Source of the DNA: Burkholderiaceae bacterium
Lineage (GTDB): Bacteria > Pseudomonadota > Gammaproteobacteria > Burkholderiales > Burkholderiaceae_D
Length of the DNA stretch: 64,000 nucleotides
Assembly: GCA_004298905.1 (NCBI GenBank)
Contig: SCTK01000019.1
Location: forward strand, 62,001-126,000
Direction: 5' to 3'
Under the pieces are notes generated by a model. The model did not search any database. It saw only the letters and a list, made by a program, of their open reading frames with translations, and was not told the origin of the DNA. A program made the translations under genes and the position numbers. Position 1 is the stretch's first letter, and each line of letters starts with the position of its first letter. Positions 14,261-24,434 of the stretch are shown here, in pieces.

Positions 14261-15157
14261 ATGTCTGCAAAACCGCCCCGCTATCGTATTGGTCTGGCCG
14301 CCAACCGTGCTCATCAGGATGCCGACGACTCGGCGCTGGTGCGTCTGCTGCGCGATGGGCGCTCGGCCATCAATCACCTGCAACCGCAATTGGTGATCGT
14401 CGGCCGGACGCTGGATGCCGTCGAGCGCCACGGCCTGCTGTCCGGCTATCCGCATATCGAGCGTTTCCCTTACGGCCGCGAAGGCGGGCTGATGAAACTG
14501 GTGTCGCGCATCGTCGAAGACGACCCCACACGCAATCTGGATGCCGTGATTTACCTGATGGACCCGGTCGATCCCTCGTCCAATTTCCCCGAAGCGCTGG
14601 CGCTCAAGCGCCAATGCGTGATTCACAGCAAGCCCTATCTTTCGACGCTGGCGGGTGCGCGCGAGTGGTTTGAACTGGAAGCGGTGGCCACCGGTGCCGC
14701 CCCCGATCCCAGCCTGGACGATGTGTTCAATCTCGAAAACGAAAGCATCGCCCTGATCGCCCACGACGCGATGAAAGACCGCATGGTCGAACTGGCCGAA
14801 AAACATTTTGCTCTGCTCGACCGCTTCGCCATGCGCTGCGCCACCGGCACCACCGGCGGCCTGCTCAATCAACTGGCGCAAAAAATCAAGGGCAAGGACG
14901 CCGGCCGCAGCTGGGTGCGCCCCTTCCTCAGCGGCCCGCTGGGCGGCGATGCGCAGATCGCCGAACTGATTTTGAATCGCGAATGCCGCCGCGTGCTGTT
15001 CCTCGAAGACCCGCATGTCGCACGTCAGCACGAAGCCGATATCCAACTGCTGGAACGCGCCGCCCGCACCGTCACCGATTACGCTTCGTGCAGCAGCGAT
15101 GTGAAAAATGTCGAGCGCTGGTTGAGTCAGATGGCTCTGCGCAGCAAGCGGGCATAG
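14261..15157 (+). CDS. mgsA: Methylglyoxal synthase, tandem-domain form
   Basis: Converts DHAP to methylglyoxal and phosphate, relieving sugar-phosphate overload. Ordinary MgsA has about 150 residues; this protein has 298 and appears to be two MgsA-fold units in tandem. The C-terminal unit (about 160-298) keeps the active-site features: IALIAHDAMKDRM, ATGTTGG, the catalytic aspartate in SGPLGGDAQIAEL, and histidine plus aspartate in DPHVARQHEADI. The N-terminal unit (about 10-150) has the same order of elements (GLAANRAHQDAD, EGGLMKLVS, YLMDPVDPSSNFPEAL), but the GGD and the histidine are missing, so it is probably inactive or regulatory. It is divergent from dihydroxyacetone kinase. Confidence 0.9.
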   Translation: MSAKPPRYRIGLAANRAHQDADDSALVRLLRDGRSAINHLQPQLVIVGRTLDAVERHGLLSGYPHIERFPYGREGGLMKLVSRIVEDDPTRNLDAVIYLMDPVDPSSNFPEALALKRQCVIHSKPYLSTLAGAREWFELEAVATGAAPDPSLDDVFNLENESIALIAHDAMKDRMVELAEKHFALLDRFAMRCATGTTGGLLNQLAQKIKGKDAGRSWVRPFLSGPLGGDAQIAELILNRECRRVLFLEDPHVARQHEADIQLLERAARTVTDYASCSSDVKNVERWLSQMALRSKRA

Positions 15158-15168
15158 TCAGAACAAAC

Positions 15169-15196
15169 AAACGCCAACGATCACTCGTTGGCGTTT
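15169..15196. terminator. Terminator behind mgsA
   Basis: AAACGCCAACGA and TCGTTGGCGTTT form a perfect 12-bp stem with loop TCAC, 12 nt after the mgsA stop. It lies between convergent genes and can work in both directions. Confidence 0.85.
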
Positions 15197-15230
15197 CTGC
15201 CGAACCTACTCTAGTTACTACCACCTTTGC

Positions 15231-15905
15231 TTAACGCAAAACAGTGGCAGCACGTGTGCCCTGCATTTCAACATCGACCCGACGATCAGGTTGCAGGCAC
15301 GAAATCAGCGCCGCATTTTTCGGGCCTTTGCAATCACCGGCCAGTGTCACCGGTTGGGATTCGCCTTTGCCTTCTGCAGAAATGCTATTCGCCCGAACGT
15401 CTTTACTGATCAGATAGTCTCTCACCGTATTGGCGCGGCGCTGTGAAAGGTCCTGGTTGTAGGCGGCACTGCCAATGCGATCGGCATGACCGGTGGCCAC
15501 AATCGATTCATAGGTTGCACCTTTGACCTGTTGCGCCAGGTCATCAAGCATAACCTTGCCTTCTGGCTTCAACTCTGACTTGTCGAAGGCAAAGAGCGCA
15601 TCTGCCGAGAAGCTCACTTTTTGTGGCGGCTGAATCACTTCAGGCGCAACGGCCACTGGACCCGCCGCGGTTGGCGGCATGAATTCAGGCGTTACGGCCA
15701 CTGGCGCACTTGGATCGCACTGTTCCGACTCACTTGAGGTTGTCCACCTCCCGGTATGCCAGCACAATCCAGTGCCACTGACGACCACCGATCCGCCCTT
15801 CTCCGTCAGATAACCTTGATCGCGCGCCTCTTGAGCGGATGCGAAGGTGGGAATCAGTAGTGTTGTGGCGCAAGCGGCCAACATAAATCGTGTCATTGAT
15901 TTCAT
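15231..15905 (-). CDS. OmpA-family outer-membrane/peptidoglycan-binding protein
   Basis: A 224-residue exported protein. The signal peptide is about residues 1-24 (MTRFMLAACATTLLIPTFASA). A variable region with two CxxxxxC-like cysteines and a Pro-rich linker repeating PVAVxPEFMPP/PVAVAPEVIQPP follows. The C-terminal OmpA domain (about 100-210) has LFAFDKSELKPEG, ATGHADRIGSAAYNQDLSQR and RRANTVRDYLISK, the peptidoglycan-binding signature. No N-terminal beta barrel is present. The start at 15905 is fixed by AGGAG ten bases upstream; the frame runs open to 16037. It lies at the left end of a stress-gene cluster, with a 16-bp dyad about 100 bp upstream. Confidence 0.9.
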   Translation of the reverse strand: MKSMTRFMLAACATTLLIPTFASAQEARDQGYLTEKGGSVVVSGTGLCWHTGRWTTSSESEQCDPSAPVAVTPEFMPPTAAGPVAVAPEVIQPPQKVSFSADALFAFDKSELKPEGKVMLDDLAQQVKGATYESIVATGHADRIGSAAYNQDLSQRRANTVRDYLISKDVRANSISAEGKGESQPVTLAGDCKGPKNAALISCLQPDRRVDVEMQGTRAATVLR

Positions 15906-16001
15906 AACAAGTACTCCTATTAAATATTTAATCCTTTGTTGATTGGCGTAGCCAAATGACCATGCCAATGTTTCAACATAGGCGCGTATGGAGATATTGT
16001 T

Positions 16002-16017
16002 TGTGCGCAGGCGTACA
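16002..16017 (+). promoter_or_regulatory. 16-bp dyad, site 1 (OmpA upstream region)
   Basis: TGTGCGCAGGCGTACA. It matches sites 2 (16528) and 3 (18074), with half-sites TGTRYGC and GCGTACA around a central NG. It lies about 97 bp upstream of the OmpA-like start codon. Confidence 0.55.
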
Positions 16018-16146
16018 TAGCGCGGACAGGAAACCAATTCACGATAGTGTGCGAGGGATGCTGTCTATTTTTTCACCGCCGCTCTTTTCGCTATCACTCT
16101 CTAGCGGCCGGTTTTCTTCGCGGCGTTGAAATCGTCGTCAGGCAGC

Positions 16147-16362
16147 TTACTTCGGACGATCGTCCTTGGTGAGTTCTTCAAAGCTGAGAATTTGTTTCTC
16201 CGCTTCGTCCTTCGTGATGCCGTAGGCCTCCTGTATCTTGCCCGCCAATTCAACGCGCTTGCCGGCAATCACATCAAGCTGATCGTTAGTGAGTTTGCCC
16301 CACTGCGCTTTCACCTTGCCTTGATACTGCTTCCAGTTTCCTGCAACGGTATCCCAGTTCAT
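16147..16362 (-). CDS. CsbD-family stress protein
   Basis: A 71-residue hydrophilic cytoplasmic protein of the CsbD/YjbJ type, often strongly induced in general stress but without a known biochemical role. The family features are the start MNWDTVAGNWKQYQGKVKAQ, then WGKLTNDQLDVIAGKRVELA and the C-terminal GITKDEAEKQI. AAGGAG lies 6 nt before the ATG at 16362, which decides the start; the frame is open to 16413. It is transcribed divergently from the DUF3309 gene. Confidence 0.92.
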   Translation of the reverse strand: MNWDTVAGNWKQYQGKVKAQWGKLTNDQLDVIAGKRVELAGKIQEAYGITKDEAEKQILSFEELTKDDRPK

Positions 16363-16527
16363 CTCAATCTCCTTCTGCTCGAAGTTCGATTGGCAGAATT
16401 GCCAACCGGGCATTCTGTGTTTCCGTCCGGCTGCCGTTACGCGTGCGTCTGGTGCAACGGCAAACTGGATTGATCGTTTGAAAACTCAGGATGCAGGTAC
16501 AGGGTAGGCGCTGGCTGACACGATGTC

Positions 16528-16543
16528 GGTGCGTTGGCGTACA
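16528..16543 (+). promoter_or_regulatory. 16-bp dyad, site 2 (CsbD/DUF3309 divergent region)
   Basis: GGTGCGTTGGCGTACA, sharing the right half-site GCGTACA and most of the left half-site with sites 1 and 3. It lies between the CsbD gene (minus) and the DUF3309 gene (plus), about 110 bp before the latter. Confidence 0.5.
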
Positions 16544-16655
16544 GACGATTCCGTCCACTTGACTAACATGCAGAAAAGGGACACGCCGCAAAGCGCACGA
16601 AAAGTAGCGTGAGCGTCGCGAAAGTTTTTCAAATACTTCTGCAAGGAGAAATGAA

Positions 16656-16814
16656 ATGACATTAGGAACAATTTTGTTGATCGTGCTGGTGTTACTGCTG
16701 ATCGGTGCAATTCCAAGCTGGCCCCACAGCAGATCGTGGGGCTACGGGCCCAGCGGTGGTCTTGGCCTGGTGCTGGTGATCCTGCTGATTCTGTGGATGA
16801 TGGGAAAAATCTAA
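16656..16814 (+). CDS. DUF3309-family small membrane protein
   Basis: A 52-residue protein, MTLGTILLIVLVLLLIGAIP followed by SWPHSRSWGYGPSGG and a second hydrophobic segment ending in WMMGKI. Two membrane helices flank a short Trp/Gly-rich loop, the standard form of DUF3309. Function is unknown. GGAGAA lies upstream. An earlier ATG at 16651 is stopped at once (ATG AAA TGA). It is one of several very small stress-cluster genes. Confidence 0.88.
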   Translation: MTLGTILLIVLVLLLIGAIPSWPHSRSWGYGPSGGLGLVLVILLILWMMGKI

Positions 16815-16974
16815 CCCGTCACGCGTGAATTGGCAATGCAGGGCAATGCATGGCTCCGAATCTCGGCCTTGCCAATACGATGAAACGTTCGGAGAGTGCT
16901 TCTTGATTCGATTCAAGCATCGAGAAGCTTTGGACTTTATTGCTTGTTTGTAATCTTATTTGGAGCATTTGATC

Positions 16975-17289
16975 ATGACACAACAACTCAAACGTTTTTC
17001 CGCTTTCTTCGTTGCGGTGCTGTTTTCCGTGATCGCGGGTTGCGCAGCGACACCGACGCATCAATCGACTGCAAGCTATGTCGACGACACCGTCCTGACC
17101 ACAAAGGTCAAGGCAGCCGTGTTCAACGAACCGACACTGAAGTCCGCCGAAATCAACGTCGAAACCTACAAGGGTGTGGTGCAACTGAGCGGCTTTGTCA
17201 GCTCCGATGCCGCCATTCACAAGGCCGTCGCGATTGCACGCGGCGTCGAGGGTGTGCAGTCAGTCAAGAACGACATGCGGCTCAAGTAA
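16975..17289 (+). CDS. BON-domain lipoprotein
   Basis: A 104-residue envelope protein. It has a lipoprotein signal (FFVAVLFSVIAGC, lipobox IAGC, about residues 12-24), then one BON domain (about 35-104) with DDTVLTTKVKAAVFNEPTLK, INVETYKGVVQLSGFVSS and a final GVEGVQSVKNDMRLK. BON domains bind phospholipid, and OsmY/DolP-type proteins support envelope integrity under stress. GGAG lies nine bases before the ATG at 16975, which I prefer to the TTG at 16960. Confidence 0.92.
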   Translation: MTQQLKRFSAFFVAVLFSVIAGCAATPTHQSTASYVDDTVLTTKVKAAVFNEPTLKSAEINVETYKGVVQLSGFVSSDAAIHKAVAIARGVEGVQSVKNDMRLK

Positions 17290-17364
17290 CCGCAGGCCGG
17301 GTTGCCGAACTGGTGGCCCATACCAGGCAACCCGGCTGACTGATTTTCAATGAGAGGAAATGAA

Positions 17365-17529
17365 ATGCTTAACTATGCTGCTGTATTTTTTGTCATCGCA
17401 CTGATCGCTGCCGTGTTCGGTTTTACCGGCATCGCAGCGGGTGCAGTGGGGATCGCGAAGGTGTTGTTCTTCGTGTTTGTCGTGCTGTTTGCGATTTCGT
17501 TGATCTACGGATTGTTACGACGCGCTTGA
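17365..17529 (+). CDS. DUF1328-family small membrane protein
   Basis: A 54-residue, almost wholly hydrophobic protein with two membrane helices: [20 protein letters not shown], then [15 protein letters not shown] and a closing LIYGLLRRA. This matches DUF1328 (YtjA type). Its function is unknown; relatives often lie beside BON and CsbD genes. GAGAGGAA lies just before the ATG. A strong hairpin follows. Confidence 0.92.
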
Positions 17530-17576
17530 ACGTGCGGCCTTCCGGCCGCTCGCATCACACTGGTTCATGAAAGCAC

Positions 17577-17610
17577 AAGGGATACTCTGCCCATAGGCAA
17601 AGTATCCCTT
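17577..17610 (+). terminator. Terminator hairpin behind the DUF1328 gene
   Basis: AAGGGATACT and AGTATCCCTT form a 10-bp stem, with TGCC/GGCA extending it inward. The run after it is short (TTTCTCG). A GCGGCC-TTCC-GGCCGC hairpin just upstream (about 17534) may assist. Confidence 0.65.
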
Positions 17611-17631
17611 TCTCGTATGTGTCTCCCTACA

Positions 17632-17665
17632 TGTGATGCGCCACCCGATACGGTGGCGCATCACA
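17632..17665 (-). terminator. Hairpin behind the glycine-zipper lipoprotein gene
   Basis: TGTGATGCGCCACC and GGTGGCGCATCACA make a perfect 14-bp stem with a 6-nt loop, 12 nt beyond the minus-strand stop codon. No T-run follows, so it may act mainly as an mRNA-stabilising end. Confidence 0.55.
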
Positions 17666-17677
17666 CATCCAGCCTCA

Positions 17678-17896
17678 TTATTTTTTGTTGACTTCGTGGC
17701 CAATCACGCCACCCACCACAGCACCGCCAACGGTTCCGGCCGTACTACCCCCCGTCAGGATGGCCCCGCCGACCGCACCGACGCCCGCGCCAATGGCGGT
17801 ATTCCGGTCTCGTGTCGACATACCGGAACAAGCACCCAGGCTGAGCAACAGCGCGAGCGTCACTCCACTGAGCGTAAATCTTTGCATGGTTTTCAT
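17678..17896 (-). CDS. Glycine-zipper lipoprotein, OsmB-like
   Basis: A 72-residue lipoprotein. The signal is MQRFTLSGVTLALLLSLGAC, with the acylated cysteine about residue 23. The mature part has two Gly-rich helices (NTAIGAGVGAVGGAILTGG and AGTVGGAVVGGVIGHEVNKK) that form the glycine-zipper 2TM motif. Such proteins are osmotically or stationary-phase induced outer-membrane components. AAAGGGG lies before the ATG at 17896; an ATG three codons later is also possible. A dyad element lies about 180 bp upstream, next to the divergent Crp/Fnr gene. Confidence 0.88.
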   Translation of the reverse strand: MKTMQRFTLSGVTLALLLSLGACSGMSTRDRNTAIGAGVGAVGGAILTGGSTAGTVGGAVVGGVIGHEVNKK

Positions 17897-18073
17897 GGTG
17901 TTACCCCTTTCTCAGAATTCAGAATTGTGAAGTGCCGCATCGGCAAACCGCCGGACAAACACTTGTCTTCGTCAACATCGCACTGCTTGCAAGCAACGCG
18001 CATTGCCACGGTGCAGAGATCGACCGCTGTTGGCTCTGACCTATTCAGTCTAGGCGGAGAGCCCTGCACTGTC

Positions 18074-18089
18074 TGTATGCTGGCGTACA
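18074..18089 (+). promoter_or_regulatory. 16-bp dyad, site 3 (Crp/Fnr gene upstream region)
   Basis: TGTATGCTGGCGTACA. With its reverse complement TGTACGCCAGCATACA this is the most symmetric of the three sites (TGTAYGC on both arms around two central bases). It lies about 140 bp before the Crp/Fnr-type start codon and about 180 bp before the divergent lipoprotein gene. Confidence 0.55.
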
Positions 18090-18230
18090 TATCGGAGTCC
18101 GTGCCCGCAAAAATCAGACGATTCCTGCTGCCGGCTTCCGAAAATGTCGCCCATAATCGGATCGAACCGTAATAGCGCGCTGTGACGGCTACGCCTCGTG
18201 GTTATCTCGGCGAATGATGGGAGATCACCC

Positions 18231-18950
18231 ATGCCCTCTTCTTACGACCCTTGTCAAAATCACCTTCTCGCCGCCCTGCCGGCGGACGAGCGCGTGCGCA
18301 TCTTCCCGTATCTCGAACGGGTTCCGCTGGCACTCGGCGAAGGGCTGTATGAGCCCGACATTCAGATGCGCCATGTCTATTTCCCCACCACCTCGATCGT
18401 GTCCCTGCTCTATGTCATGGAGGATGGAGCATCGGCTGAAATTGCCGTGGTTGGCAACGAGGGCATCGTCGGGGTGTCTCTCTTCATGGGGGGTGAAAGC
18501 ACGTCCAGCCGGGCGGTCGTGCAAAGTGCCGGGCATGCCTACCGGCTGCGCGGGCAACTGCTGAAAGCCGAGTTCTATCGCGCCGGCCCGATGCAGCGTC
18601 TCTTGCTGCGTTACACCCAATCGCTGCTGACACAAATGGCACAGACCGCCGTATGCAACCGCCACCATTCGCTGGACCAGCAGCTCTGCCGCTGGCTGCT
18701 ACTGAGCCTCGACCGCCTACCCGCCAATGAGTTGGTCATGACGCAGGAATTGATTGCCAATATGTTGGGCGTGCGCCGCGAAGGTGTGACGGAGGCGGCC
18801 GGAAACCTGCAAAAAGCCGGTTTGATCGAATACCACCGTGGCCACATTACCGTGCTCGACCGCGTCGCGTTGGAAGCGCGCGCGTGTGAGTGTTATGCAG
18901 TGGTCAAGAGAGAGTGCGATCGATTATTGCCGGATGAAATCGGCGCATAA
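18231..18950 (+). CDS. Crp/Fnr-family transcriptional regulator
   Basis: A 239-residue cytoplasmic regulator. Residues about 25-140 form a cyclic-nucleotide-binding-like beta barrel (HVYFPTTSIVSLLYVMEDGA, IAVVGNEGIVGVSLFMGGES), but the cAMP phosphate-binding signature and Fnr-type cysteines are not seen. The C-terminal winged helix (about 145-225) has VMTQELIANMLGVRREGVTE. This short-effector class is widespread in Burkholderiales. GGGAG lies 8 nt before the ATG at 18231. It closes the stress cluster, and one of the three shared dyads is in its own upstream region, so it is the natural candidate to bind them (inference). Confidence 0.9.
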   Translation: MPSSYDPCQNHLLAALPADERVRIFPYLERVPLALGEGLYEPDIQMRHVYFPTTSIVSLLYVMEDGASAEIAVVGNEGIVGVSLFMGGESTSSRAVVQSAGHAYRLRGQLLKAEFYRAGPMQRLLLRYTQSLLTQMAQTAVCNRHHSLDQQLCRWLLLSLDRLPANELVMTQELIANMLGVRREGVTEAAGNLQKAGLIEYHRGHITVLDRVALEARACECYAVVKRECDRLLPDEIGA

Positions 18951-19119
18951 GCCGGTCGTCCGCTTTTCACCCGGGACACCCGCAGGACAATCACTTGAAG
19001 ATGGAACTGCGCGGCCCCTCCCCCCTTCAAGGGCTGATCTTTACCCACAACTCGGCACCGACCTTCGTGGAGGCGTGCCGGGGGTTGCCCGGCGGCAATC
19101 TCTGCACTTCGTAGTACCG

Positions 19120-19223: not shown

Positions 19224-21431
19224 TCAGAACGGTACGCTGTTCCCAAGGTGTTGTTCAAATTCCTTCAAGGGCATGGGCCGGCTGAATAGGTAGCCCTGAA
19301 AACCGTGGCAACCGTGCAGCCCCAGGAATTCGCGCTGCGCTTCCGTTTCCACACCTTCCGCGATCACTGCAAGCCCCAGGGTATGTCCCAGTGTCAGTAC
19401 CGTGCAGGCAATGGCGGCATCGTTCCGGTTGGTGAGCACATCGTGGATGAAAGACTTGTCGATCTTCAACTGGCCCAGGGGCAGGCGCTTCAGGTAGGAC
19501 AGTGATGAATAGCCGGTGCCGAAATCATCCAGCGACAAACCGACACCGTGCGCCGTCAGGGTGGCCATCTTTTCAATGGTGCCTTCGACATCGTCCAGCA
19601 TCACGCTTTCTGTCAATTCCAGTTTGAGCTTTTTCGGATCGGCACCGGCACGTTCGAGCGCGGTGATGACCCGTTCGACAAAGTCCGGCTGGCGAAATTG
19701 CAGGGCGCTGATATTGATAGCCAGGGTGAGGTGGGCGGTTGCCGGGCGCGTGGCCCATTGGCTCAGCTGAGCACAGGCCATGTTCAATACCCATTGACCC
19801 AGCGATTCAATCAGGCCGCTGTCTTCCGCCAGCGGGATGAATTCGCTGGGCAGAATCAGGCCGCGCTGCGGGTGCTGCCAGCGCACCAACGCCTCGACCC
19901 CGGTGATGTGCTGATGGTCGTCCATCTGCGGCTGGAAGTAGAGCAGAAACTGATTTCCCAGCACGCCCTGACGCAAGTCGTACTTCAGGGCAGCGCCAAT
20001 GGATACGGCGGCCTGGACATCACCATCGCCATCGAAGAAGCGCATGGTATTGCGGCCGGCGGCCTTGGCCTGATACATGGTCAGGTCGGCCTGCTTCAAC
20101 AGTTCAGCGGCGTTGTATTGACGATCACCAAACAGGACAATGCCGATACTGGCCGTGCTGTGATATTCATGGCCGGCCAGCTGATAGGGTTTGCGCAGTT
20201 CCGCGACAATTTTTTCACCGGCCGTTTTGGCCTGCGCGGCCGCTTCTACGGGGTGTTCGCTCAGGTCGGCCAGCATCAGCACGAATTCGTCGCCGCCCAG
20301 ACGCGCTACCGTATCGCCTGCGCGCGCGCACTCGGTCAGGCGCTGCGCGACTTGCAACAGCAGCAGATCCCCCTTGTCGTGGCCATGGGTATCGTTCAGG
20401 GTTTTGAAATGGTCCAGGTCGATGAACATCAGCGCGCCTTCGAGCCGCGTGCGGGCGCTGGTCGCCAGCACTTGATGCAAGCGGTCCATCAACAAGCGCC
20501 GGTTGGGCAGCAGGGTCAACGCATCGTAGAACGCGAGTTGATTGATCTCTTCCCACGATTTGCGCTGTGAAATATCGACCATCGTATAGACGTACTGCGT
20601 GACTTTCTTTTTTTGATCTGTCACGGCGGTGATGGTCAGCCATTCGGGGTAGACCTTGTCATTTTTGCGCCGGCTCAATACTTCGCCTTGCCAGAGTCCG
20701 AAACAGTTGACGCTCTCGCGAATCGCCTCGTAAAAGGACTCATCATGCAGCCCCGAGTGGACCAGGCTGGGCGTCTTGCCGATGGCTTCTTCGGCGCAAT
20801 AGCCGGTGATGTCGCTGAAAGCACGGTTGACCCGCAGGATCACCCAATTGGCATCGGTGATCATGATGCCTTCCTGCGTCTCGAAGGCAGCGGCGGCGAT
20901 GCGCAGTTCGGCCTCCGCTGCCTTGCGTTCACCGATGTCGGTCAATGTGATGCGGAGTAGTGGAACCGCTTCTTGCGTCATCACGCGCACAGAATCCAGT
21001 TGCACATGCAAGGCATGGTCATCGCGAGTCTTGAGGGTCAATTCGATGCGCGACGGGTCTTCACGTTTTAGTGCGTCGCGAAAATACAGATGCCAACGAT
21101 GGCTGTCTTCGGCGGTCACCAGGCGCACAAAGGCATGCTTCAGCAATTGCCTGCGTTCCTTGCCGAGCAGTCCGGTCGCGGTCAGATTGGCTTCGACGAT
21201 CATGCCCTGCGCATTCAGCGTGAGATAACCGACCGGGGCAAAATCATACAAATCGACAAAACGGTCGTGTGCTGTCTCCAGCGCAACCTGGGCGCGCCGC
21301 AACTCCTCGTTTTGCATTTCCAGTTCGACCTGATGCACTTGCGGTTCATGCAGCAGTTCCTCCGGGCGCATCGTTGGCTGCATCAGCAGTGGCAATTCAG
21401 CCTGATCTGATGCCTTCCATTTTTGTGGCAT
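19224..21431 (-). CDS. PAS-GGDEF-EAL cyclic-di-GMP protein
   Basis: A 735-residue signalling protein without membrane segments. A coiled N-terminus leads into two PAS domains (about 55-175 and 180-300, the second with DISQRK at its end). A GGDEF domain follows (about 310-470, with DLDHFKTLNDTHGHDKGD and an intact LGGDEFV), then an EAL domain (about 490-735). The EAL domain keeps GVEALVRWQHP, the metal-binding DDFGTGYSSLSYLK and AEGVETEAQ, so both cyclase and phosphodiesterase activities are possible. The gene starts 12 nt after a CheB-CheR-PAS fusion with GAGGGAG as ribosome binding site, so the two are probably one operon and may share signal input. Confidence 0.95.
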   Translation of the reverse strand: MPQKWKASDQAELPLLMQPTMRPEELLHEPQVHQVELEMQNEELRRAQVALETAHDRFVDLYDFAPVGYLTLNAQGMIVEANLTATGLLGKERRQLLKHAFVRLVTAEDSHRWHLYFRDALKREDPSRIELTLKTRDDHALHVQLDSVRVMTQEAVPLLRITLTDIGERKAAEAELRIAAAAFETQEGIMITDANWVILRVNRAFSDITGYCAEEAIGKTPSLVHSGLHDESFYEAIRESVNCFGLWQGEVLSRRKNDKVYPEWLTITAVTDQKKKVTQYVYTMVDISQRKSWEEINQLAFYDALTLLPNRRLLMDRLHQVLATSARTRLEGALMFIDLDHFKTLNDTHGHDKGDLLLLQVAQRLTECARAGDTVARLGGDEFVLMLADLSEHPVEAAAQAKTAGEKIVAELRKPYQLAGHEYHSTASIGIVLFGDRQYNAAELLKQADLTMYQAKAAGRNTMRFFDGDGDVQAAVSIGAALKYDLRQGVLGNQFLLYFQPQMDDHQHITGVEALVRWQHPQRGLILPSEFIPLAEDSGLIESLGQWVLNMACAQLSQWATRPATAHLTLAINISALQFRQPDFVERVITALERAGADPKKLKLELTESVMLDDVEGTIEKMATLTAHGVGLSLDDFGTGYSSLSYLKRLPLGQLKIDKSFIHDVLTNRNDAAIACTVLTLGHTLGLAVIAEGVETEAQREFLGLHGCHGFQGYLFSRPMPLKEFEQHLGNSVPF

Positions 21432-21443
21432 GGCTTCGCTCCC

Positions 21444-24434
21444 TCACTGGCTGGCAACGTCTTTCATTGCCAGCAAAATCAATTCATTATTTCCCGTTAT
21501 GTCCACCAGGCGGCGCGCGTTGAGCAGCAAGCGGCGCGGGCCGACGATGGGGAAGTCATATACCACCGCATAGTCTTCGAAGCTCTGCTGGTGCGGCAGG
21601 ATGTTCTCCAGCAATTCGCGCAGGTCGGGAATATCCCACTGGCGGTTACCAAGATCGTAGATACGCCGTCCCAGCGTTTCTTCCGCGCTGACCTTGAATG
21701 CACTATAGAACGAAGGGCTGGCGGAAACCACGTCCAGATCGCCATTCAGCACGAGCAGCGGTTCGCGTATCGTATCGACGATACCTTTGGCCAGTTCCAG
21801 TACCTTGCGCGCCGCCGCATGGGCCAGCCGTTCGGTAATGTCGGCAAAGGTCAGCACCACGCCATCAATGACATTGTCCATGGTGCGGTAAGGTTGAATC
21901 CGCACCAGATACCAGGATCCGCTGGGGCCGCCGACTTCGCGTTCCATCGGCACCAGGGTGTCGAGCACTGTCTGCGCATCGGTGAGCAGATCTTCGTAGT
22001 GCAGATCGGATTTGATGTCGCCCAGCGGCCGGCCCACATCCGACTCGACCAGGCGATAGACGCGCGTCGCATCGCGTGTAAAGCGGCGCACCACCATATT
22101 GCGGTTGAGAAAAATAGTGCCGAAATGAATGTTGTCGAGCAGGTTCTTCATGTCGTTCTGCATACGCGCCATTTCTTCGATCTTGTTTTGCAGTTCGGCA
22201 TTGACGGTGATCAACTCCTCGTTGATCGATTGCAATTCTTCCTTGGAGGTTTCCAGCTCTTCGTTGGTGGACTGAAGTTCCTCGTTGGTCGATTGCATCT
22301 CTTCATTGGTCGATTTCAATTCCTCGTTGGAGGCTTGCTGTTCTTCCACAATGGCTTGAAGATTTTCTTTCGTATAGCCGAGTTCGTGCTCCAGTGCCTC
22401 AATGCGGCGCGTTTCCGCGGAAGCAACTGACCCTGCCGCAGCACGGCTGCGTCTGGATGCCGGTTTTTTCACCACCGGGTGCGGCACCTCCTGAAAACTG
22501 ATCACCAGCAGATGCTGATTCTCACTGAGGCCCTGCAGCGGACGGATGCTGAAACTCATCGTCTGAAAATCGTCATTGGTCTTGACGGTGACTTCGCGAT
22601 TCAATACCGGCATCTCTTGACTGGCGGCATTGCGCAGCGCTTCGCGCAATTCAAGCTGCAACCCTTCGCGCGCCATTTCGACCACATCGAAGGTCGCCTT
22701 GCCGGGGGCGGGGCGCAGATACTTGCCGGTCTCGCCATGCACGTAGAGGATGTTACCGGCCAGATCGGTCACCACCGAAGCCGGAGCGAAGGATTGCAAC
22801 AGCAGGCGGCGGGCGAATTCAGCAAAGTTGTTTTCTTTCATACGCGGAGCAAGTTCTTCTGGAATTTTGTGAGTTGTTGGCAAGGGGAGTGGCAGTGGCA
22901 GTTTGCCCGCCGTCAGAGTTCGGGTCGCGGGCGCTGAATCGATGGTCTTGTAAAACTTCCACTTGCGGTCGAGCGCAGTGAACATCCCCATCGGATTGCC
23001 GATGCTTTCCGAGGGCGAGAGAAACAGCACCCCACCGCGTTTGATGGCGTAATGGAACGTGGCAATCAGCCGCTCCTGGAGATCCGGCTCCAGGTAGATC
23101 ATCAGGTTGCGGCACGCGAGCAGATCAAGACGGGTGAAGGGCGGATCCTTGATCACGTTCTGCACCGCGAACACCACCATCTCGCGGATTTCCTTTTTCA
23201 CCCGGTAGCCCACTGCGTCTTCCTTGATGAAAAAACGGCGCAAGCGTTCGGGAGAAATATCCTGGCCGATGCTGAAGGAATAGACCCCGGTGCGCGCGAT
23301 GGCAATCGCGTCTTCGTCGAGGTCGGTGGCGTACATCTGCACCTTCAATTCGTGCTGCGCCTCATCCATCGCTTCGCGCAGCAGCATGGCGATCGAGTAG
23401 GCTTCTTCGCCCGTGGCGCAACCGGCGACCCAGATGCGAAACACGGCATCGGCGGATTTGTCCTTGATCTGTGCCGGCAGAATTTCCCGGCGCAGCAGCT
23501 CGAATGCCTCGGCATCGCGGAAGAAGCTGGTGACATTAATGAGCACTTCCTGAAACAGCTTGTGCACTTCGGCCGGTTGCTCCTTGAGATAGCGGGCATA
23601 GTCTTCCATGCTTTCCAGATTGTGTTGCAGCATGCGCCGCTCGATGCGGCGGCCGATGGTGCTCTTCTTGTACTGGGAGAAATCGTTGCCCGTGACTCTG
23701 CGCAAGTGCATCAAGATGCGATTCATGCTGTTGACGCTGCTCGGTGCTGCAGGTGTCCCATCATCGTGCCGGGTCAATCTGCGCACGCCTTTTTGCAATG
23801 CCTCGGGCATGTTCCCCGCCGGCATGACATGGGTGGCATAACCGGCCTTGATTGCACTGGCGGGCATACCGTCGTATTTGGCAGTCGCGGGCTCCTGCAC
23901 CAGCGCAATGCCACCAGCGCCGAGAATGCTGCGCAGTCCCTGCGTGCCATCGGTGCCGGTGCCGGACAGGATGATGCCGATGGCTTCCTCACCCTGATCT
24001 TCGGCCAGTGAACGCATGAACCCGTCGATTGGCATGCGGTGTCCCCGCGGTTGATCCGGCAGATGCAATTGCAGGGTGCCCTGAAAAATCACCATGTCGC
24101 GGTTGGGCGGAATCACATAGACATGGTTGGGGACGACTTTCATCTGATCCTGCACCTCCAGGATCGGCAAGGAAGTACAGCGCTGCAGAATTTCGCCGAG
24201 GATGCTCGGATGATTGGGATCAAGGTGCTGAACCAGCACGAACGCCATGCCCGTGTCGGCAGGAAGATGGGAAAAAAATTGTTCAAACGCTTCCAGCCCA
24301 CCGGCGGAAGCGCCCAGCGCCACGATGGGAAACTTGCCCGTCTCCTGCGTTTCAGTCGCTGCCTTGACCTCGCGCCCGGCGTTGCTGTCGGCGCTGCTGG
24401 CGTTGGTTTTTTCCGTTGCCTTGCTGGTTGCCAC
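21444..24434 (-). CDS. CheB-CheR-PAS fusion signalling protein
   Basis: A 996-residue cytoplasmic protein. Residues about 35-220 form a CheB methylesterase domain with the serine in GASAGGLEAF, histidine in VQHLDPNHPS and aspartate in SGTGTDGTQG; no receiver domain precedes it. Residues about 235-500 form a CheR methyltransferase with ERRMLQHNLESM, FFRDAEAF, VAGCATGEEAYSIAM and CRNLMIYLEPDLQ. A PAS region (about 540-640) is followed by a long coiled coil built on repeats of STNEEL and ELQS (about 690-770) and two C-terminal PAS domains. No histidine-kinase domain follows, unlike many relatives. Relatives regulate receptors or kinases outside canonical chemotaxis. The next gene encodes a GGDEF-EAL protein. 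Confidence 0.94.
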   Translation of the reverse strand: MATSKATEKTNASSADSNAGREVKAATETQETGKFPIVALGASAGGLEAFEQFFSHLPADTGMAFVLVQHLDPNHPSILGEILQRCTSLPILEVQDQMKVVPNHVYVIPPNRDMVIFQGTLQLHLPDQPRGHRMPIDGFMRSLAEDQGEEAIGIILSGTGTDGTQGLRSILGAGGIALVQEPATAKYDGMPASAIKAGYATHVMPAGNMPEALQKGVRRLTRHDDGTPAAPSSVNSMNRILMHLRRVTGNDFSQYKKSTIGRRIERRMLQHNLESMEDYARYLKEQPAEVHKLFQEVLINVTSFFRDAEAFELLRREILPAQIKDKSADAVFRIWVAGCATGEEAYSIAMLLREAMDEAQHELKVQMYATDLDEDAIAIARTGVYSFSIGQDISPERLRRFFIKEDAVGYRVKKEIREMVVFAVQNVIKDPPFTRLDLLACRNLMIYLEPDLQERLIATFHYAIKRGGVLFLSPSESIGNPMGMFTALDRKWKFYKTIDSAPATRTLTAGKLPLPLPLPTTHKIPEELAPRMKENNFAEFARRLLLQSFAPASVVTDLAGNILYVHGETGKYLRPAPGKATFDVVEMAREGLQLELREALRNAASQEMPVLNREVTVKTNDDFQTMSFSIRPLQGLSENQHLLVISFQEVPHPVVKKPASRRSRAAAGSVASAETRRIEALEHELGYTKENLQAIVEEQQASNEELKSTNEEMQSTNEELQSTNEELETSKEELQSINEELITVNAELQNKIEEMARMQNDMKNLLDNIHFGTIFLNRNMVVRRFTRDATRVYRLVESDVGRPLGDIKSDLHYEDLLTDAQTVLDTLVPMEREVGGPSGSWYLVRIQPYRTMDNVIDGVVLTFADITERLAHAAARKVLELAKGIVDTIREPLLVLNGDLDVVSASPSFYSAFKVSAEETLGRRIYDLGNRQWDIPDLRELLENILPHQQSFEDYAVVYDFPIVGPRRLLLNARRLVDITGNNELILLAMKDVASQ

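Follow-up and report, generated by a model that had tools for sequence, protein, structure and literature searches.

A recurrent palindrome in an envelope-stress gene cluster of a Burkholderiaceae bacterium, probably bound by the adjacent Crp/Fnr-family regulator

Background

CRP recognizes the consensus TGTGA-N6-TCACA, and its cyclic AMP (cAMP)-contacting residues are E72, R82, T127, and S128. FNR-type sites follow the form TTGAT-N4-ATCAA, and NtcA promoters bear a TAN3T -10 box. A section of PMC3898017 describes NtcA promoters as having a GTAN8TAC palindrome, centred about -41.5, for this Crp-family activator. Here we examine 64,000 nucleotides of a Burkholderiaceae bacterium (assembly GCA_004298905.1, contig SCTK01000019.1, positions 62,001 to 126,000; this whole stretch is called the window below), in which a 20-bp palindrome occurs three times among small envelope and stress genes, beside a gene for a Crp/Fnr-family regulator. 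With a probability of about 0.78, we suggest that the three dyads are operators of this adjacent protein, which would act as a class II activator. A sequence-only reading of the window had already guessed at such operators, and the guess is supported by de novo recovery of the motif, co-occurrence across genomes, promoter geometry, and covariation of recognition helix and site. The motif, its independent recovery, the -10 spacing, the gene associations, the co-occurrence, and the covariation were computed, and from them we infer binding by this protein, activation, and envelope or osmotic stress as its occasion.

Results and discussion

Three dyads in the window and their recovery from other loci

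The three 16-mers from which the analysis started were all found where the sequence-only reading had placed them. Their dyad nature stood, but the form proposed for it, TGTRYGC-NG-GCGTACA, had to be replaced by the consensus TGTRCGC-NN-GCGYACA, extended outward to T.TGT...ACA.A, so that each predicted operator spans 20 bp:

16000..16019: predicted operator 1, TTTGTGCGCAGGCGTACATA, upstream of the OmpA-like gene (21.4 bits with the independent matrix, window rank 2)
16526..16545: predicted operator 2, TCGGTGCGTTGGCGTACAGA, between the CsbD and DUF3309 genes (20.5 bits, rank 3)
18072..18091: predicted operator 3, TCTGTATGCTGGCGTACATA, between the OsmB-like and regulator genes (23.6 bits, rank 1)

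In the window alone, the original pattern at up to three mismatches was not significant (9 matches versus a shuffle mean of 7.0, with 27 of 100 shuffles reaching 9), and the search was therefore extended to loci outside it. A matrix trained on DNA upstream of Crp/Fnr-gene homologues in 80 other loci, taken from other species and without the window, ranked exactly these three sites first to third in the window at 20.5-23.6 bits, followed by a fourth position at 10.5 bits. Markov-3 simulations amounting to 60 windows' worth of sequence contained one position reaching each site score, or ~0.017 per window. Site 2 carries two core mismatches, and its outer bases are correct. Across the whole genome (2.48 Mb), the 20-mer TNTGTNCGCNNGCGNACANA was matched with at most two mismatches in 18 places versus 7 for the reversed control, and the cluster sites took ranks 1-3 when these 18 places were scored with the matrix. 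Rank 4, C10:33403 at 20.2 bits, came close to site 2 (20.5 bits) and appears, by inspection of its translation rather than a family search, to lie within a reading frame resembling an aminotransferase.

The 80 loci (764 kb) were chosen by the regulator protein alone. Within them, the palindromic form of the original motif was matched 81 times at one mismatch or fewer, in 43 loci, and the backwards pattern not once. When exact dyads were counted over the 300 bp preceding the regulator, the leading ones (4-mer GTGC-N6, 5-mer GTGCG-N4, and 6-mer TGTGCG-N4) all represented one motif, and palindromic expectation maximization (EM) on the 350 bp before the regulator gene in these loci recovered TcTGTgCGcTAgCGcACAgA with an estimated occupancy of 77%. 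The de novo consensus, TCTGTGCGCTAGCGCACAGA, has a CRP-like layout with altered inner bases. At 14 bits or more, the matrix found 258 matches in 81 loci versus 3.7 (maximum 15) for column-permuted matrices, a comparison that is partly circular because those loci trained the matrix. The first gene calling mixed antisense shadow open reading frames (ORFs) with genes, and its genic and intergenic counts are not used as evidence; it placed 100 sites of at least 20 bits outside and 50 inside called genes, several of the latter being shadow-ORF cases by eye, window site 3 among them.

Promoter geometry and target genes

Downstream of matrix matches of at least 18 bits (373 oriented segments), TAnnnT stands at offset 39 from the site start in 66 segments, versus a background of 2.1 per offset, and pooling offsets 36-39 gives a P of about 8e-60. 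The 75 promoters with TAnnnT at offset 39 are spread over 42 of the 81 loci; their -10 box is degenerate beyond TA...T, and the 19-base gap holds no other fixed element. With the T of the -10 box taken as -12, the site centre falls at -41.5, the position of a class II activator. The class II layout (an operator near -41.5, a -10 box, and no -35 element) is thus seen in the offset-39 TAnnnT promoters, whose transcription starts are predicted from sequence. The window holds four candidate boxes:

15975..15980, minus strand: predicted -10 box TATGTT of the OmpA-like promoter, offset 39 from operator 1
16501..16506, minus strand: predicted -10 box TACCCT of the CsbD promoter, offset 39 from operator 2
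18047..18052, minus strand: predicted -10 box TAGACT of the OsmB-like promoter, offset 39 from operator 3
16564..16569, plus strand: possible -10 box TAACAT toward DUF3309, offset 38, one base off; weak and unmatched in locus L170

Locus L170 comes from a genome of another family and keeps CsbD, site, DUF3309, and BON in the window's order, with the site in the same intergenic position; of its two sides, only that of CsbD has a TAnnnT (TAGTCT) at offset 39. Each site lies before one or two genes, as first noted, and the offset-39 boxes point to the minus-strand OmpA-like, CsbD, and OsmB-like genes; on the plus strand, the DUF3309 box is one base off, and no TAnnnT at a fitting offset was found on the regulator side of site 3. 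Likewise, the regulator does have a site in its upstream region, as had been pointed out, but the -10 geometry there fits the OsmB-like gene and not the regulator. Because the minus-strand boxes fit to the base and the regulator side has none, the OsmB-like gene is the likelier target of site 3. The regulators' own promoters in other loci are spaced more loosely: the 71 examined contain 20 near-consensus -10 boxes, at offsets ranging from 35 to 39, and such boxes would also suit autoregulation.

Genes beside the sites in other loci were tallied by Pfam family. Of the 232 candidates, ORFs directed away from a site, 190 were scanned, and all 128 ORFs taken from site-free gaps of the same loci served as controls. 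The 190 ORFs contained HTH_Crp_2 (28), CsbD (13), glycine zipper (11), and BON (10), and more rarely OmpA, PRC-barrel, and DUF4398 (4 each), DUF3309 and DUF1328 (3 each), and DUF883 (2). Among the controls, GGDEF/PAS proteins dominated, CsbD and DUF4398 were found twice each, and BON, OmpA, and glycine zipper each number at most 2, as 25 of the 53 control families are listed. Directly behind the 75 offset-39 promoters, the scan covered 82 of 84 ORFs, omitting a duplicate and a very long frame, and yielded the OsmB model 12 times, HTH_Crp_2 10 times (Crp/Fnr paralogues), glycine zipper 8 times, BON and CsbD 4 times each, and OmpA 3 times.

The regulator and its relation to the sites

The protein belongs to the Crp/Fnr superfamily, with an HTH_Crp_2 match at 4e-15 and a cNMP_binding score of 27.4 bits, just below the cut-off of 27.5. 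Its AlphaFold model (predicted local distance difference test, pLDDT, 88) has the Crp/Fnr fold and 302 PDB matches at E <=0.001, the best being mycobacterial CRP, FNR, GlxR, and NtcA, with 15-24% identity among the matches listed. Equivalents of CRP R180 and E181 are retained, and R185 is replaced by E. Two types of recognition helix occur among the homologues: VRREGVTEAA marks subfamily A, and VRRVGVTKAA with its variants marks subfamily B.

The motif and the regulator partly co-occur across genomes. The strict 20-mer (at most one mismatch) occurred in 10 of 228 other genomes sampled from the class; 8 of these 10 had the regulator, compared with 21 of 228 overall (Fisher 5e-8). Among 59 relatives, the 30 genomes with a good homologue gave 195 matches versus 92 controls, and the 29 without gave 79 versus 70, the weak homologues of three genomes (G007, G044, and G054) being counted as negatives. 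Sixteen hand-picked genomes serve as illustration only: 16 matches fell in 7 of 8 regulator-positive genomes and none in the 8 others, six of the regulator-positive ones having been picked for being motif-positive.

The site also changes with the recognition helix. In CRP, genetics has shown that residue 181 contacts the base pair that differs here. In Cupriavidus, Burkholderia, and Paraburkholderia, the subfamily-A helix reads VRRSGVTEAA, with Ser for Glu at CRP position 181, which corresponds to Glu184 of the window protein. Counting exact dyads over whole loci revealed an altered site there, GTACG-N4-CGTAC, present 22 times in 10 of 13 Ser-181 loci versus 7 times in 6 of 77 other loci, and TGTRCG-N4-CGYACA was found in none of the 13 versus 34 of the 77; among the 13, Ser was verified in 11, L208 has Ala, and the L209 regulator is interrupted by an insertion. 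The spacing is the same: of 42 segments from these loci, 11 have TAnnnT at offset 39, and no other tested offset has it more than once.

Mechanistically, a regulator dimer would bind the 20-bp palindrome centred at about -41.5 and stand in for a -35 element, by which RNA polymerase could use the poor -10 box (TAnnnT) before the OmpA-like, CsbD, and OsmB-like genes. Sites 2 and 3 may also act in the opposite direction, on DUF3309-BON-DUF1328 and on the regulator gene, respectively, and the occasion would be envelope or osmotic stress.

Several results weigh against this activator model. The original form of the motif was unmatched in 37 of the 80 regulator loci, 29 of 98 same-helix regulators were not preceded by a site scoring 16 bits or more, and the strict site was not found in 13 of the 21 regulator-positive genomes of the class sample. 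Conversely, two motif-positive genomes (G175 and G182) had no good homologue, and the excess in homologue-lacking relatives (79 versus 70) came mostly from one genome, G001. EM upstream of the Ser-181 regulators did not find the altered site and returned an unrelated sequence instead, the site lying elsewhere in the loci; moreover, the Ser-181 loci are all from Burkholderiaceae and several are near-identical, leaving few independent events behind the covariation. Enrichment of single families is modest, both for CsbD (13/190 versus 2/128, P 0.02) and for BON (10/190 versus at most 2/128, P about 0.08). As for G001, where no regulator homologue was detected, 16 motif matches versus 2 controls were counted at one mismatch and none with the 20-mer; another factor with a similar core may act there.

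The absence of the motif near many regulator genes and its presence in the two genomes without a good homologue would also be expected if the sites belonged to another DNA-binding protein sharing the neighbourhood, and the loci do hold subfamily-B paralogues (RRV..K helix), whose promoters have the best-conserved sites. We nevertheless regard such a binder as unlikely: the layout is that of the CRP family, no signal immediately before the regulator gene is stronger than the motif, and the site shifts with regulator residue 181 at constant spacing. In addition, the sites upstream of subfamily-B genes stay alike while the B helices vary, which makes subfamily A the likelier binder than B.

It is rather improbable that the protein mainly represses, keeping polymerase out from sites that cover part of the -35 region. 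Autorepression would suit the regulators' own promoters, with their near-consensus -10 boxes at offsets 35-39 and loose spacing (20 strong in 71), but the target -10 boxes are degenerate at a distance fixed to the base (66/373 at offset 39), and a sigma-70 scan of 15100-19100 gave one promoter-like site and none at the predicted -10 positions. If the element were instead part of a promoter read by an alternative sigma factor, it could likewise keep a fixed distance to a -10-like box, and the target types resemble genes controlled by sigma-S or sigma-B; this is very improbable for a 20-bp palindrome that serves promoters on both strands and changes together with a Crp/Fnr helix. Finally, the window-only count of 9 versus 7.0 at three mismatches is all that a chance or compositional likeness of three GC-rich words would explain, and the three dyads are real, such likeness being excluded by the independent matrix (ranks 1-3) and the offset-39 spacing; the 81 versus 0 motif matches in 80 loci and the 258 versus 3.7 matrix matches also count against it. 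On balance, the sites are probably bound by the adjacent Crp/Fnr protein acting as an activator.

A cAMP receptor identity was rejected, as the positions of E72, R82, T127, and S128 correspond to a gap, T/M, M, and mostly A in 23 subfamily-A sequences (the E. coli CRP sequence compared is identical to PDB 1g6n). An FNR identity was rejected since the 32-sequence alignment has no conserved N-terminal cysteine cluster, and an NtcA identity at 30.8 bits versus the equivalog-model cut-off of 244.95. C142, H146, C219, and C221 are invariant in the 32 aligned members of subfamilies A and B, and we would guess at a redox or metal signal. The C-terminal CxC (C219, C221) is placed after the helix-turn-helix, unlike in FNR.

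Gene cluster around the sites

The cluster reads OmpA-like (-), site 1; CsbD (-), site 2, DUF3309 (+), BON (+), DUF1328 (+); OsmB-like (-), site 3, regulator (+):

15231..15905, minus strand: OmpA-like envelope protein, chosen start ATG 15905 (Pfam OmpA 9.6e-22; NCBIfam OmpABordt below cut-off)
16147..16362, minus strand: CsbD family protein, chosen start ATG 16362 (Pfam CsbD 8.5e-18)
16656..16814, plus strand: DUF3309 membrane peptide (Pfam 4.7e-24)
16975..17289, plus strand: BON-domain lipoprotein-like protein, OsmY-like (Pfam BON 2.5e-20), without its own site
17365..17529, plus strand: DUF1328 membrane peptide (Pfam 8.3e-14), without its own site
17678..17896, minus strand: OsmB-like glycine-zipper lipoprotein (NCBIfam OsmB 4.6e-27, 93.8 bits versus a cut-off of 98)
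18231..18950, plus strand: Crp/Fnr-family regulator with a cNMP-like domain and HTH_Crp_2
18771..18803, plus strand: recognition-helix codons, VRREGVTEAAG, residues 181-191

The matrix scan found no own site for the BON and DUF1328 genes and nothing further above 10.5 bits in the window. Read by eye, large signalling genes follow the regulator at 19224-24434, a GGDEF/EAL-like one and a CheB/CheR-like fusion, and PAS-GGDEF-EAL genes are frequent neighbours in other loci too.

Subfamily B and wider distribution

All 19 subfamily-B promoters examined have an EM-found site that is highly conserved and asymmetric, with the majority sequence TATGTGCGCTAGCGYCCAGACR and TGG for TGT in the gene-proximal half, and 18 of the 19 sites pass 16 bits with the symmetric matrix. 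Most of these promoters (e.g., in L085, L104, L105, L051, and L078) have CAnnnT rather than TAnnnT at offset 39. The B operator could be a site for an A-B heterodimer or a tuned A site.

Homologues are also plasmid-borne, with copies on plasmids of Acidovorax, Variovorax, Cupriavidus, and Burkholderia, several with PRC-barrel, Spy, YSC84, DUF1003, or CsbD neighbours, and on pKLC102 of Pseudomonas aeruginosa (L196 12004-12723), where a 19.2-bit site and an offset-39 TAnnnT precede a hypothetical gene that directly follows the regulator. The conjugative pKLC102 has a giant glycoside hydrolase family 94 gene adjoining the regulator, and regulators on Acidovorax and Paraburkholderia plasmids have similar neighbours (glucoamylase family). 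In Methylocapsa, a distant relative lies near CsbD, two DUF3309, and GlsB genes. The regulator on a Cupriavidus metallidurans plasmid (L209 6001-6519) is apparently cut by an IS3-like element. As a tentative and rather doubtful extension, the system might be a mobile, self-contained envelope-stress regulon of Beta- and Gammaproteobacteria, with Crp/Fnr paralogues split by residues 181 and 185 (Glu/Glu, Ser/Glu, Val/Lys) and having separate operators, in which the asymmetric B operator binds an A-B heterodimer or marks an A-to-B cascade.

Comparison with known systems

A widespread Crp/Fnr subfamily, annotated by family name only in the plasmid records examined, thus gains predictions of where it binds, which genes it controls, and how its promoters are laid out, and poorly understood stress peptides (CsbD, DUF3309, OsmB-like, BON) are tied to a dedicated predicted activator. 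Specificity switching in the Crp/Fnr family could be tested simply through the covariation of helix and site. No published account of the motif, regulator, or regulon was found in the open-licence literature searched. The proposed mode of action, in which a Crp-family protein activates from a class II position, is already known from NtcA and CRP; the regulon is apparently new. The earlier remark that no site of this form is described agrees with that search, but CRP and NtcA sites are known to have this layout.

With E. coli CRP, the system shares the 16-bp core, the 5-6-5 layout, the -41.5 position, and the equivalents of R180 and E181; it differs in its half-site (TGTGC-G versus TGTGA-T), in having E for R185, and in its unconserved cAMP-contact positions. 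FNR, ANR, and FixK share the fold, Aliivibrio fischeri FNR being among the top structural matches, but the site here is not TTGAT-N4-ATCAA, and the N-terminal cysteine cluster was not found. Passages of PMC9104464, PMC3759415, and PMC6127331 concern the Burkholderia Anr-type regulators, a different group, and the first of these prints an Anr-type box. NtcA promoters, as far as the cited section describes them, are alike in their GTA-N8-TAC-like spacing and -41.5 position, the Ser-181 sites (GTACG-N4-CGTAC) being literally GTA-N8-TAC; unlike there, the inner CG..CG and outer T/A are fixed here and other genes are served, NtcA being a nitrogen regulator. The TAN3T form of the -10 box is a further likeness. 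A CsbD/DUF1328/BON cluster was raised in an antimonite-resistant Achromobacter mutant, according to a portion of PMC11719878, and part of PMC7660261 has CsbD, BON, and PRC-barrel raised in Nostoc. The gene types themselves resemble the general stress genes of sigma-S and sigma-B (osmB, osmY, csbD, elaB), whereas control here is apparently exerted by a dedicated Crp/Fnr activator encoded beside the genes.

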